A DNA stretch of 52,666 nt from a virus. Positions within the stretch are counted from its first letter, which is position 1. Every line of letters begins with the position of its first letter. The notes under the pieces are model-generated. The model made no database searches. It worked only from the letters and a program-made list of their open reading frames with translations, and was not told the origin of the DNA. The stretch is taken from IMG/VR virus record IMGVR_UViG_3300027821_000001, positions 1 to 52,666 of that record; one strand, given 5' to 3'. Made by a program: the position numbers and the translations under genes. Positions 6,457 to 42,150 of this stretch are shown here, one piece after another.

Positions 6457-7634
6457 GTATGGAACTTAAGCCCCATCAGAGATCTGCACTCGACCAGCTC
6501 GCTAATGGCAAAATTCTCTGGGGCGGGGTTGGCTCAGGTAAGTCACAAGTAGCAGCAACTTACTACATCGAGGAAGAGCGACCACGAGATGTGTATGTGA
6601 TCACTACCGCCAAGAAACGTGACACGCTCGATTGGGAAGGTGAGTTTGCTCCTCACGGAATCGGTAAAACACGAGATGCAACTGTCTCTGGTTTGCTGAC
6701 CGTCGATAGTTGGAACAACATCCATAAGTACACTGAAGTTAGCGGTGCTTTCTTTATTTTCGACGAACAAAGATTGGTTGGATCTGGAACCTGGGTAAAG
6801 TCGTTTCTGAAGATTGCCCGCCAGAATCGCTGGATTCTGCTCTCTGCAACTCCGGGGGATACTTGGCTCGACTATATCCCGGTCTTCATCGCCAACGGTT
6901 TCTACAAGAATCGGACCGAATTCAAGCGCGAACACGTGGTCTACAAGCCGTTCAGCAAGTTTCCTAAGGTTGAGCGCTATCTGAACACCGGTCGTCTAAA
7001 TAGATATCGCAATCAGATCTTGGTGCCGATGGCTTACACCAAGCTGACTACCCGCCATTCACGCACGATTCCAGTCGACCATAATGAGGAACTGTTTCAA
7101 AGCGTATTGAAGAATCGCTGGAACATTTTCCTGAATCGGCCGATCCGTGATATCAGCGAAACTTTTGCTGTTTTACGGCGAATTGTGAATAGTGATCCCA
7201 GTCGGGTCAAAGCCGTGAGAGAGCTTCTAAGCACGCATCCTAAGCTGGTAGTGTTCTATAACTTTAACTATGAGTTAGAGCGTCTACGGGCTTTAGAGGA
7301 CGTTACAGCGGTAGCTGAGTGGAATGGACACAAGCACGAAGAGATCCCTGAGGGTAATAACTGGGTTTATCTAGTTCAGTACGTAGCGGGCTCAGAAGGC
7401 TGGAATTGCATCGAGACCGATACGATCGTTTTCTACTCATTGACCTATTCGTACAAGAACTGGGAACAAGCACATGGTAGAATTGATCGACTGAATACAC
7501 CATTCCTGGATCTCTACTACTATACTTTAAAAAGTAAGAACGCGGTCGACACTGCAATCTGGCGGAGTCTGAAAGCAAAACAGAATTTCAATGTCGCCAA
7601 ATTTCCGATCGAAACACTGAAAAATATGAGTTGA
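6453..7634 (+). CDS. SF2 (SNF2/DEAD-like) helicase, 393 aa
   Basis: The N terminus has the Q-like element KPHQ and a Walker A GGVGSGKS (residues 24-31). Walker B is FFIFDEQ (Asp104-Glu105-Gln106), motif III is SATP (131-134), and the C-terminal lobe carries QAHGRIDR (339-346) as motif VI. An EGWN motif precedes it. The layout fits compact phage SF2 DNA-dependent ATPases that unwind or remodel DNA in replication or recombination. It is slightly short for the family but both RecA-like lobes are complete. It stands directly before the iteron array at 7651-7955 and may act there. Confidence 0.85.
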
Positions 7635-16798: not shown

Positions 16799-18528
16799 TG
16801 ACTACCTTTATTGGCAGTCTAGTAGTTCCGCGCCAATCAGCACCACCTTCGTCGCCTATGACGGGACAACTTTACTACGATATCGATGATAATAAACTTT
16901 ATTGGTGGAATGGCACAATCTGGGTAGATGCTACCGGTACTGCGCCTGGTGCACCAACTATTTATGATAGTGATCAAATCGGTACGGTTAAAGTTTGGAC
17001 GGGTAGGACGATTCCAACCAATTGGCTGTTGGCAGCCGGACAAACGCTAAACGAGAATGCTGGTTATGTAGATTTGGCCAATTTTGCTGCTGCTGAGGTT
17101 GCGGCAGGAAATCCACTTTGGGGAATTACAGGCACTGCACCTAATCGAATTATTACACTTCCCGATTTTCGTCGTAAAATGTTGTACGGTTCAAGTACAC
17201 CAACCTCGGATTTAGGTATGAGTTATCAGAGTGGGGGCGCAGAAACACACACTCTTACTCTTGGTCAGCTCCCAAACCATCAACATGGTCCGGGAACGCT
17301 CTACACAGGTGGGCGTGATACGGCTCATACACATAGTGGTACAACTAGTCCCGCAGGTACCCATAATCATGGTCCATCTACTAGTGATAACTTTGGCACA
17401 ACTACGGGAGCCACAGCAGCGCTTGGTTCGGGTGGTACCTCTCGCTATATTGTCTCGAATTATGGCTGGACCGATTGGGAACCTGATCACCAACACGGTT
17501 TTTCAACTGGTTACGAATCTGCCGATCATGGTCATGCAGTTACTTCGGGTTTGACTGGAGCTGTTGGTAGTGGTAATGCAATTAATAATCTACCACCACA
17601 TATTTTGGTAGCATTCATTATCAAGGTTATGGGTGCAGCTATCAATTCAGGCGGAGTGCTTCAAGGAGCAACGGGCGCACCAGGCGCAAAAGGTGATCCC
17701 GGTCCTTGGCGTGGTGCTTGGTCAGCAGCGACAGCTTATGCCATAGGTGATTCGGTTAGTTATTACGATGGTACTGTTACGGCTAGCTATCGACGTAAAG
17801 TAGCGGGTACAACTGCCGGTAACCCGAAGACCGATACAACGAATTGGGAGATAATTGCTTCGGGTGGTTCGGTTGGAGCTCCGGGAGCAGTTACAGTCTA
17901 CGAACAGCCTGATCAGCCGAGTGATACTACAACTGGTGCGATCTGGGTTGATACCGATGATACGCCTGCAGCCTGGACTCCGCTCATTCCAGTTGTCACT
18001 TCTTTGCCGACTAGTCCATACGATGGGCAAGAAGTTTATTTATTGGCCGATGCTACTGGCGGTGTGATGTGGCATTTACGCTTTCGAGCAGCGAGTCCGA
18101 GTACGTTTAAGTGGGAGGCTATTAGCGGTCCATCTATTTCCGCGGCTGTTGTGACTGATCAATCGTTTGCTGCGAATGCAGGTTACAACGATCCCGCTAC
18201 ACCAGGTCCGTTAATCACCTTCCCGCGCGCAGGCGATTATGAGTACGAGGCTCAATGCGATATGTATGTTGCATCGCAGTCAGCAGCACTCACGGGTGTG
18301 CTTGGATTGACGCCTTCTTCGGGTACTTTCGATGCGAGTGGTGGTACAACAACCGATCCGCATACTGCGTATCTGGCTAACGGTGGTTTAGCTTCCTCGT
18401 TTCTTGCTGTGGGTGTGATTCGGGGTGTCGCCGCAGGCGGGACATTAAAGATGCAGTACCAGGCAAATAATGGTGTGCCGCATGTACGTTGGCGGATTAT
18501 CAAAGCGCGTCCGATTAGGGTGATCTAA
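16798..18528 (+). CDS. Tail collar/fibre protein with carbohydrate-binding module, 576 aa
   Basis: Four blocks are visible. Residues 20-43 repeat the GQLYYDIDDNKLYWWNGT attachment module of the 15473 protein. Residues 60-275 match the phage tail collar/microcystin-dependent-protein fold (GTVKVWTGRTIPTNWLLAAG, later TLGQLPNHQHGPG and PPHILVAFIIKV). A short collagen-like stretch then precedes WRGAWSAATAYAIGDSVSYY, a CBM5/12-like sugar-binding motif. The C-terminal beta domain ends at VRWRIIKARP. The multi-domain layout suggests an adhesin that binds host surface polysaccharide. Confidence 0.75.
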   Translation: MTTFIGSLVVPRQSAPPSSPMTGQLYYDIDDNKLYWWNGTIWVDATGTAPGAPTIYDSDQIGTVKVWTGRTIPTNWLLAAGQTLNENAGYVDLANFAAAEVAAGNPLWGITGTAPNRIITLPDFRRKMLYGSSTPTSDLGMSYQSGGAETHTLTLGQLPNHQHGPGTLYTGGRDTAHTHSGTTSPAGTHNHGPSTSDNFGTTTGATAALGSGGTSRYIVSNYGWTDWEPDHQHGFSTGYESADHGHAVTSGLTGAVGSGNAINNLPPHILVAFIIKVMGAAINSGGVLQGATGAPGAKGDPGPWRGAWSAATAYAIGDSVSYYDGTVTASYRRKVAGTTAGNPKTDTTNWEIIASGGSVGAPGAVTVYEQPDQPSDTTTGAIWVDTDDTPAAWTPLIPVVTSLPTSPYDGQEVYLLADATGGVMWHLRFRAASPSTFKWEAISGPSISAAVVTDQSFAANAGYNDPATPGPLITFPRAGDYEYEAQCDMYVASQSAALTGVLGLTPSSGTFDASGGTTTDPHTAYLANGGLASSFLAVGVIRGVAAGGTLKMQYQANNGVPHVRWRIIKARPIRVI

Positions 18529-40559: not shown

Positions 40560-40574
40560 AACATTGCGTATAAT
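40550..40574 (+). promoter_or_regulatory. Phage promoter, TCGCG-N14-TATAAT
   Basis: TCGCG 40550-40554 and TATAAT 40569-40574, 14 bases apart, followed by GAGACT. The upstream box lies inside the end of the preceding gene. It drives the gene at 40597. Confidence 0.75.
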
Positions 40575-40980: not shown

Positions 40981-41005
40981 TCGCAGTTATTACATCGCGT
41001 ATAAT
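40981..41005 (+). promoter_or_regulatory. Phage promoter, TCGCA-N14-TATAAT
   Basis: TCGCA 40981-40985 and TATAAT 41000-41005 with spacer GTTATTACATCGCG, followed by AGAGAG. It starts a very short transcript that ends at the inverted repeat 41006-41080. Confidence 0.8.
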
Positions 41006-41080
41006 AGAGAGTAATCATGCCTCATATAACTGCAAAACAAAAGTGCGCAGTTGGACTGCAGGAACGGTTACTCTCTTTTT
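41006..41080 (+). terminator. Short leader/small RNA with terminator-like closing stem
   Basis: AGAGAGTAA 41006-41014 pairs with TTACTCTCT 41068-41076, and AACTGC 41028-41033 pairs with GCAGTT 41047-41052, followed by TTTTT. The first arm begins right after TATAAT, so the full stem forms only if transcription starts within about five bases of that box. A 23-codon frame (MPHITAKQKC...) also lies here without a good ribosome site. The U-tract runs into the next promoter's TCGCG. Confidence 0.55.
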
Positions 41081-41104
41081 CGCGATAATTACACGTTATA
41101 TAAT
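41080..41104 (+). promoter_or_regulatory. Phage promoter, TCGCG-N14-TATAAT
   Basis: TCGCG 41080-41084 and TATAAT 41099-41104 with spacer ATAATTACACGTTA, followed by GAAATG. It drives the micro-membrane protein at 41134. Confidence 0.8.
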
Positions 41105-41300: not shown

Positions 41301-41325
41301 TCGCAGAAAAAACATCCTATATAAT
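41301..41325 (+). promoter_or_regulatory. Phage promoter, TCGCA-N14-TATAAT
   Basis: TCGCA 41301-41305 and TATAAT 41320-41325 with spacer GAAAAAACATCCTA, followed by GAGATAGG. It precedes the leader hairpin at 41329 and the gene at 41390. Confidence 0.8.
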
Positions 41326-41328
41326 GAG

Positions 41329-41389: not shown

Positions 41390-41521
41390 ATGATGGAACA
41401 GGGGGCAGTTGAAGAAGCGCGTCGTTTGCTGGGCGAAGCAGTTGAGAAAATTGCCCTAGCATTCCTCGCACTTGAGATGACTGAAACTGAGCTAGACGGA
41501 GCCGATGAGCAGGCGGCTTAG
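41390..41521 (+). CDS. Small helical acidic protein, 43 aa
   Basis: ATG 41390 follows GAAAGGATT. The 43-residue product (EQGAVEEARRLLGEAVEKIA, then LAFLALEMTETELDGADEQA) is a single amphipathic helix with an acidic tail. No family was recognised. Its stop is nine bases before the first helix of the 41530 structured RNA, so both may share one transcript started at 41301. Confidence 0.55.
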   Translation: MMEQGAVEEARRLLGEAVEKIALAFLALEMTETELDGADEQAA

Positions 41522-41529
41522 TTTTTTTT

Positions 41530-41920
41530 CTAACCCAGTGGGAGGCTACCTGATATTGAGGGGCGACAAAAGTTATAGGTCGTACAACCTATAGCCACAA
41601 AGCGTCCGCCTTGTACGGGGAAAGTGTCGCTAACGGGTAATTCCCGCAGAGCGGCCCAGGTAGTCTCCCAGTGGGTTAGTTAAGCGAACCGTTGGACAGT
41701 ACAGTCCCGGAAGACACGGCGGATAGGGTTCGATTCCCTATGTACAGCTTAAGTTGTCTAATTCACTCAGTCCTGATATTGAGGTTAGCTACACCAAGAC
41801 ATATCGGCTGAAATATAACAAGTGGCTAGTTGCAACGGCGGACAGTCCATTGGAAGGCAAACGTACTTAAAAGTCAGTGGAGTGTAAGTTGTACGTTGAA
41901 AAACTCCACCTGTCCGCTTT
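41530..41920 (+). ncRNA. Large structured non-coding RNA, about 390 nt, with T-arm-like hairpin
   Basis: A 23-base helix (one G-G mismatch, one G-U) joins 41530-41552 to 41657-41679. Inside, GCGACA 41563-41568 pairs with TGTCGC 41625-41630. A hairpin TATAGGT/ACCTATA has a CGTACA loop complementary to TGTACG at 41612-41617 (pseudoknot). Next come GGAC/GTCC, and TAGGG-TTCGATT-CCCTA (41724-41740), which has the exact form of a tRNA T-arm. In the 3' part AACGTAC 41860-41866 pairs with GTACGTT 41891-41897 and crosses GTGGAG 41877-41882/CTCCAC 41904-41909, enclosed by GCGGACAG 41838-41845/CTGTCCGC 41910-41917. The 13-mer CCTGATATTGAGG occurs twice (41549, 41772). No coding frame fits. It is not a complete tRNA or tmRNA. 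Confidence 0.7.
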
Positions 41921-41940
41921 TCCTCAAATTAAGGAGATAC

Positions 41941-42150
41941 ATGTTGTTCAAGAATCGGTCATTCCTAGTTAAGTCGATCAAAGATAGCGATGTACAGACG
42001 ACTTTCCCTAATACTCCACCATATATGTTGCCCGATTTTGATCACATGGCCAAAATCATCACCAAGAGTGTAAGTACGTGCATTGCTGTCTACGTTGGTG
42101 CCGACACTATTCGGCGAGTTGTTGTTTACGCAATCTCGGCTAAATATTAG
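41941..42150 (+). CDS. Small membrane-associated protein, 69 aa
   Basis: ATG 41941 follows ATTAAGGAGAT, right after the structured RNA; the longer frame from 41830 runs through that RNA and is rejected. The product has PPYMLPDFDHMAKIITKSVS, then a hydrophobic helix TCIAVYVGADTIRRVVVYAI. A similar small protein occurs in many actinophages without known function. Confidence 0.65.
   Translation: MLFKNRSFLVKSIKDSDVQTTFPNTPPYMLPDFDHMAKIITKSVSTCIAVYVGADTIRRVVVYAISAKY

Follow-up and report, generated by a model that had tools for sequence, protein, structure and literature searches.

The window, the whole stretch of DNA analysed here (52,666 nucleotides), is a 52.7-kb virus record with terminase, portal, head-protease and tail genes; the source phage also encodes a large DNA polymerase. 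The closest isolated relatives of its tail protein come from phages of Arthrobacter, Streptomyces, Microbacterium, Curtobacterium and Rhodococcus, all at less than 60% identity. The direct repeat GATTTGATTGTGCGCCCCTATG is found at both ends of the contig (window 1-60 and 52607-52666), which may therefore be complete or circularly permuted. A 913-aa protein encoded at window 10045-12786 matches PHROG 4291, whose label reads 'RNA-dependent RNA polymerase'. It may be a YonO-type RNA polymerase, a single-subunit enzyme encoded by the phage.

The RNA region under study lies on the plus strand, as do both of its neighbours, between a small ORF of 43 aa (41390-41521, read from the sequence), which ends 8 nt 5' of the helix P1 described below, and a conserved small ORF of 69 aa (41941-42150) with homologues in more than 10 related contigs. 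The nearest promoter-like site 5' of the RNA, ACATCCTATATAATGA at 41312-41327 on the same strand, is putative and was recognized by recurrence of its motif within the window. This motif, ACAYnnnnTATAATGA/TATAATAG, appears at 40561, 40992, 41091, 41312, 42616 and 44778, and TATAATGA-like promoters could be used by the candidate YonO-type polymerase. Immediately after several of the sites comes a hairpin, in which the 5' end of the transcript pairs with a strand that precedes a U-run; an RBS and a small ORF come next. The same promoter-hairpin-RBS-ORF layout was seen in the related contigs L040, L051, L024 and L239, and its recurrence suggests 5' leader RNAs or attenuators. A separate small RNA, GAGAGTAATC...GGTTACTCTC followed by a U-run, occupies 40992-41093 of the window and 4985-5090 of L040, where its closing helix has changed in sequence with pairing kept.

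A preliminary description had treated positions 41530-41920 as a single large structured RNA. Its view of the region as structured was borne out, but that of one RNA was not: three modules with separate evolutionary histories lie side by side, and at least two of them were found apart in other phages.

The first module is the core RNA (41530-41679, plus strand), which its inverted repeat, fold energy and covariance-model matches place in a new family. It is closed by helix P1, the near-perfect 23-base helix that had been noted earlier, in which 41530-41552 pairs with 41657-41679. P1 is 91% complementary over its 23 nt, and its score of 17 was never matched in 300 dinucleotide shuffles of the region (maximum 15, mean 8.8). 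The 150-nt core as a whole folds with z = -8.2, and none of 200 shuffles folded as well. The conserved element GATATTGAGG (41552-41561; TTATTGAGG-like across the family in alignments A3 and A5) stands 5' of helix P2 (41562-41566 with 41602-41606), whose two strands adjoin the conserved CAAAA (41567-41571) and ACAAA (41597-41601). Within P2 lies hairpin P3 (41572-41595), with loop L3, CGTACA, at 41581-41586; 3' of P2 lies hairpin P4 (41609-41620), with loop L4, TGTACG, at 41612-41617. The complementarity of L3 and L4 points to a kissing contact, and at full extent this crossing of the kissing-loop type reaches 7 bp (41581-41587 with 41611-41617, CGTACAA/TTGTACG), which agrees with the pseudoknotted core first described inside the closing helix. 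Hairpin P5 (41626-41631 with 41650-41655, and inner 41634-41637 with 41643-41646) comes from the predicted fold, its sequence not being conserved. Covariance models gave the window copy 57.7 and 63.9 bits, and by the second of these, R2, it belongs to the core family (63.9 bits, a kissing contact of 7 bp and a P1 of 23 nt).

A blast search with the whole region returned no RNA homologue and recovered only the flanking promoter and ORF elements; it was blind to such homologues because the RNA sequence is not conserved outside short strands. The first relative, on contig L070, was instead reached through a 13-mer shared with the window. Its closing helix is long and unrelated in sequence, it shares the GATATTGAGGnnCGACAA strand, and its loop pair differs from that of the window and is again complementary. 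A motif scan then provided 20 copies for alignment A3, from which the covariance model R1 and its successor R2 were derived; alignment A5 is fitted to the model. Some of the homologues were found with patterns that covered P2 together with the ACAAA/CGCC strand. Since these patterns included P2, the support for P2 is partly selected; P1, P3, P4 and the kissing loops lay outside the patterns, and their covariation is unaffected by this selection.

With R1 and R2 we found further copies beyond the training set, most scoring 30-60 bits and on contigs of up to 267 kb. One of them, on G019 (47.8 bits), sits on a contig that had been fetched only by its tail gene. Together the two models placed about 40 copies on uncultivated environmental phage contigs; these number more than 30, and each carries one copy or two. 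A strict pattern matched 16 times in 84,980 genomes of bacteria and archaea, the best match having a model score of 23 bits, so that at this sensitivity the family looks restricted to phages. When 20 members were concatenated and compared by blast with 50,697 phage records, the only matches were chance ones (E of 2 or more), and the R models gave no credible match in ReqiPepy6, Pippin15, Camille, Gordon, Count, Scarif, Ingrid, T4, T5, KVP40 or phiKZ; a 15-bit match in Gordon looked like chance on reading. The family was thus absent from every isolated phage examined. Nor did open-licence papers, preprints aside, yield a description of this core RNA family.

The fold is shared across the family. 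In the alignment 86% of the P2-P4 cells are paired, against 63% after shuffling, and 140 cells hold changes on both sides of a pair, against 43 in the shuffles. When the structures were slid by 1-3 columns the pairing was lost, falling to 27-47% of cells. P2 is paired in 96% of cells, with three of its pairs changed on both sides across the family; every one of the six modelled P3 pairs has changed on both sides in some member, and P4 is 91% paired. L3 and L4 are complementary in almost every member, through 19 distinct sequence pairs such as CGTACA/TGTACG, CGTGGA/TCCACG, CTGCCA/TGGCAG, CGCAAC/GTTGCG and CTGAAC/GTTCAG. A loop forms on average 5.7 bp with its own partner and 4.1 bp with a swapped one, a value that 0 of 2000 permutations reached (uncorrected for kinship). 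In L059, L061 and L381, where the P3 loop has been lost, the complementary P4 loop is absent too. P1 ranges from about 8 to 32 nt and its sequence changes freely while pairing is kept, with a score of 13.8 for own strands against 8.0 for swapped ones (0 of 2000 permutations, again uncorrected for kinship). The unpaired strands that are conserved comprise a 5' element ending in AGG, CAAAA, ACAAA, NGCC and GGRAAnCG. In these alignments, therefore, P2, P3 and P4 are supported by covariation, and P1 is kept by pairing and not by sequence. Most likely, the family core is a compact arrangement of P2, P3, P4 and P5 that the L3/L4 kissing contact holds shut and the long P1 seals.

Directly 3' of the core, the second module is a tRNA-like domain of about 72 nt (41680-41752, plus strand). 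The preliminary description had pointed out a perfect T-arm, TAGGG-TTCGATT-CCCTA, which is indeed present at 41724-41740; its further statement that the rest of a tRNA is missing has to be corrected, as the T-arm belongs to this larger domain. An acceptor-like stem (41680-41685 with 41747-41752) encloses a helix (41689-41693 with 41718-41722), a hairpin (41694-41697 with 41704-41707) and the T-arm. A pseudoknot pairs the hairpin loop with the strand 3' of the T-arm (GTACA, 41699-41703, with TGTAC, 41741-41745); its homologues read GCACA/TGTGC, one pair being compensatory.

A T-arm scan turned up an almost identical element 66 nt 3' of another core copy, in L305; L352/L357 came from a pattern scan, so the domain occurs in two phage lineages besides that of the window (L305 4822-4892; L352 7263-7334, minus strand). 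The T-arm is identical in all three known distinct copies, while the acceptor-like stem takes three distinct sequences (TTAAGC/GCTTAA, GGTCC/GGACC and TGTCC/GGACA) and the inner helix reads CCGTT/GGCGG or CTCCG/CGGAG. The GGAC/GTCC hairpin is common to the copies, imperfectly so in L352 as aligned. In all, 8 pairs have changed on both sides, a count that comes from three sequences only, and the slid controls gave none. By energy the domain shows no signal by itself (z -1.0), nor does the third domain stand out, and the comparison with relatives therefore had to decide. The 3' end of the L305 domain is tRNA-like, GGACC-ACCA, but this CCA is confined to L305, being absent from the window and from L352.

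The domain is rare, for model R3 found it in only 3 of 50 related records, all from the L305 and L352 lineages. Two R3 positives, G003 and G027, also carry the core. In L305, as in the window, the domain stands 3' of the core; in G003, on the other hand, about 11 kb separates it (7263-7334) from the core (18114-18201), so the two do not form an obligate pair. Two side observations concern the surroundings of such elements. An extra, similar hairpin, CGGGAGCGCGCAC...GC...CCAACnCGGGAA, directly precedes the tRNA-like domain on its 5' side in L305 (4770-4821) and L352 (7335-7385) and is absent from the window. L051 (10340-10490) and L368, which is ReqiPepy6 (1330-1450), have promoter-led small RNAs with a T-arm-like hairpin after AGACrCGAATGC, and in ReqiPepy6 a neighbouring promoter-like site precedes an annotated 'tRNA-OTHER'.

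The putative third domain (41771-41935, plus strand) is defined by inverted repeats, on single-sequence evidence only. It opens near the second of two copies of the 13-mer CCTGATATTGAGG, which, as reported before, is present in both halves of the region (41549-41561 and 41772-41784). One helix joins 41786-41792 to 41822-41828. Another, 41838-41845 with 41910-41917, surrounds an H-type pseudoknot in which 41860-41866/41891-41897 crosses 41877-41883/41903-41909; the complementarity of these helices is exact, and the crossing-helix domain outlined earlier at 41838-41917 is present. Taken alone it is only mildly unusual, since 5 of 300 shuffles held a comparable pseudoknot; the fold of the whole domain has z = -0.2 and the pseudoknot hairpin alone z = -2.4. 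Blast found no homologue of the domain. The idea that the second 13-mer marks a second core copy was rejected because R1 does not find one there.

Within the window's phage group, every core copy in a locus that could be oriented by its tail gene lies on the gene strand. Among about 14 other phages, five have a tRNA or tmRNA gene no more than 150 nt from the core copy. On the same strand in each case, the core lies 22 nt before tRNA-Thr in L277, which has 13 tRNAs; 41 nt before tRNA-Met in L286; 64 nt after tRNA-Lys in L383; about 145 nt after the tmRNA in L253; and directly between tRNA-Met and tRNA-Glu in the 24-tRNA array of L381. The L381 copy is the shortest, 66 nt as modelled, and could be released by normal tRNA maturation alone. 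Most copies have neither a tRNA nor a tRNA-like domain beside them. Two look like stand-alone RNA genes from their flanking signals: L348 has a consensus-like TTGACA-n16-TACAAT 5' of the RNA, and in L119 a CTTTTT resembling an intrinsic terminator follows the 3' strand of P1. The tmRNA that adjoins the core copy in L253 (8107-8493), on a phage contig, encodes the tag ANKNKKVASPLNFRSEMAARMVA; L349 carries a tmRNA as well.

We compared the region with known RNA families. The core matched none of the 4227 models of Rfam 15, in the window or its relatives, at the gathering score or at a relaxed E-value. Neither the window nor the relatives gave an Rfam match to RNase P RNA, group I introns, known ribozymes, GOLLD or ROOL. 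ARAGORN called no tRNA in the window and Rfam gave no tRNA match there (RF00005) even at E 5; both were likewise negative for tmRNA (RF00023) in the window. As positive controls, ARAGORN/Rfam called the tRNAs in L286, L277 and L381, and the same Rfam search detected the L253 tmRNA. Group I introns, known ribozymes, tmRNA and RNase P were rejected for want of an Rfam match. The preliminary description had not read the RNA as a tRNA, tmRNA or RNase P, expecting ARAGORN to be negative and regarding a strong Rfam match, as to a group I intron, or a lack of compensatory changes in related phages, as evidence against a new phage RNA class. Its judgement has stood up: ARAGORN and Rfam were silent on the window, compensatory changes proved abundant in the relatives, and what it had guessed to be a new class is a structured RNA family with no Rfam match.

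From these observations we infer processing, stability and a role in trans: with a probability of roughly 0.5, the core is a free, stable phage RNA that would be cut from a longer transcript by tRNA-processing enzymes and would act in trans. The region would be transcribed as a composite of the core module (41530-41679) and the tRNA-like module (41680-41752). The tRNA-like domain, or elsewhere a neighbouring true tRNA or tmRNA, would allow host tRNA-processing enzymes to act, and the core would be excised by RNase P first, with RNase III acting on P1; a 23-nt helix such as P1 would be an RNase III substrate. The released core would be a free, nuclease-resistant RNA. It may then bind a host or phage partner during infection, a step of which we are less confident than of the release. 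By analogy, processing punctuation is a role that would suit the T-arm module as well as the neighbouring tRNAs, and the putative exploitation of T-loop-recognising enzymes by the T-arm is plausible. RNase P substrates include the phage M3 RNA, the C4 RNA and the tRNA-like pseudoknots of plant viruses (PMC11143913), and this enzyme seems to require a T-loop-like element but to do without the D-loop (PMC4919913).

The RNA might alternatively control its own mRNA in cis, by hiding or exposing the RBS of the ORF at 41941 or by shielding the upstream ORF at its 3' end. The second CCTGATATTGAGG region (41771-41784) can pair with 41922-41935, overlapping that RBS and running into AAGGAG, as can the first CCTGATATTGAGG copy, less well, and copies in L119, L347, L349 and L019 stand just 5' of an ORF with an RBS. 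Judged by this pairing, the third domain may regulate the ORF at 41941. As an account of the RNA, however, cis control is unlikely, if a serious candidate: the downstream genes vary between phages, no ORF immediately follows the tRNA-array copies in L381 and L277, members from other contexts also conserve the GATATTGAGG-like element, and the third domain lacks homologues. A decoy that imitates a cellular target and so sequesters a factor of host defence or RNA decay (for instance an RNase or a nuclease that cuts tRNAs) would suit the phage location, the tRNA neighbourhood and the tRNA-like domain. No anticodon loop is evident in that domain, however, and no sequence match suggests a defence target, which leaves this explanation quite doubtful.

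A self-cleaving or self-processing ribozyme would account for conserved unpaired strands at a junction with a kissing contact, in the manner of small phage ribozymes, with the CAAAA, ACAAA, CGCC and GGAAAGCG strands around P2 and P4 as its active site; the intergenic phage location, with up to two copies per contig, would also agree. We hold it to be very unlikely, because the RNA matches no Rfam ribozyme family, no position resembling a cleavage site was identified, and a long closed P1 is unusual where an end must be released. More improbable yet, in our estimate, is that the core handles tRNAs, gripping them, or its attached tRNA-like domain, in the way of RNase P and T-box RNAs. If it did, the core would steer the processing or use of phage tRNAs, and the tRNA-like domain would be its built-in ligand. 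Finally, a perfect T-arm without an ARAGORN or Rfam tRNA call might be the remnant of a decayed tRNA, with the rest folding by accident. Compensatory changes throughout both modules in other phages rule this out for practical purposes.

A well-supported RNA family whose fold is shared by very different phages joins the short list of tRNA-associated phage RNAs. What is new is the family itself; that phages encode RNAs of unknown function next to tRNAs was known before. Minimal copies of less than 90 nt, some of them inside tRNA arrays, make processing and function testable with simple constructs. The T-arm module, for its part, would be a DNA-phage counterpart of the tRNA-like structures of plant viruses. 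In those structures and in the tRNA-like domain of tmRNA, as here, a T-arm and an acceptor-like stem are combined with a pseudoknot that replaces normal tRNA parts; the arrangement in the window differs, in that the pseudoknot joins a 5'-side hairpin loop to the strand that links the T-arm and the acceptor-like stem.

Promoter-led small RNAs also occur in the related Rhodococcus phage ReqiPepy6 and in contig L051. The L051 small RNA has a T-arm, although R3 found no match in that record; ReqiPepy6 has an annotated tRNA, as well as a stem preceded by a similar AGACGCGAATGC strand, and no member of the core family. The nearest analogues of the new RNA are the T4 species 1 RNA, GOLLD and ROOL. 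T4 species 1 (rnaC) and species 2 (rnaD) are, like the RNA described here, small phage RNAs encoded with tRNA genes, and those of T4 are stable. Homology was not found: the best core-model score was 8.0 bits, over rnaC, and the whole T4 genome gave no match. The rnaC sequence AATATTGAGTAGCGTCAAC resembles the core's 5' strand, though not significantly. Species 1 ends in a perfect T-arm, CCGGGTTCGAATCCCGG, and is not annotated as a tRNA, which sets a precedent for T-arms on phage RNAs other than tRNAs; unlike the new family, T4 lacks the P2/P3/P4 core and the kissing loops. GOLLD and ROOL are likewise structured phage or prophage RNAs of unknown function, often near tRNA islands, and GOLLD linkers sometimes carry tRNAs (PMC12286853). 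They differ from the present family, which showed no Rfam match to them, in being much larger (many GOLLD RNAs exceed 800 nt) and in forming cages.
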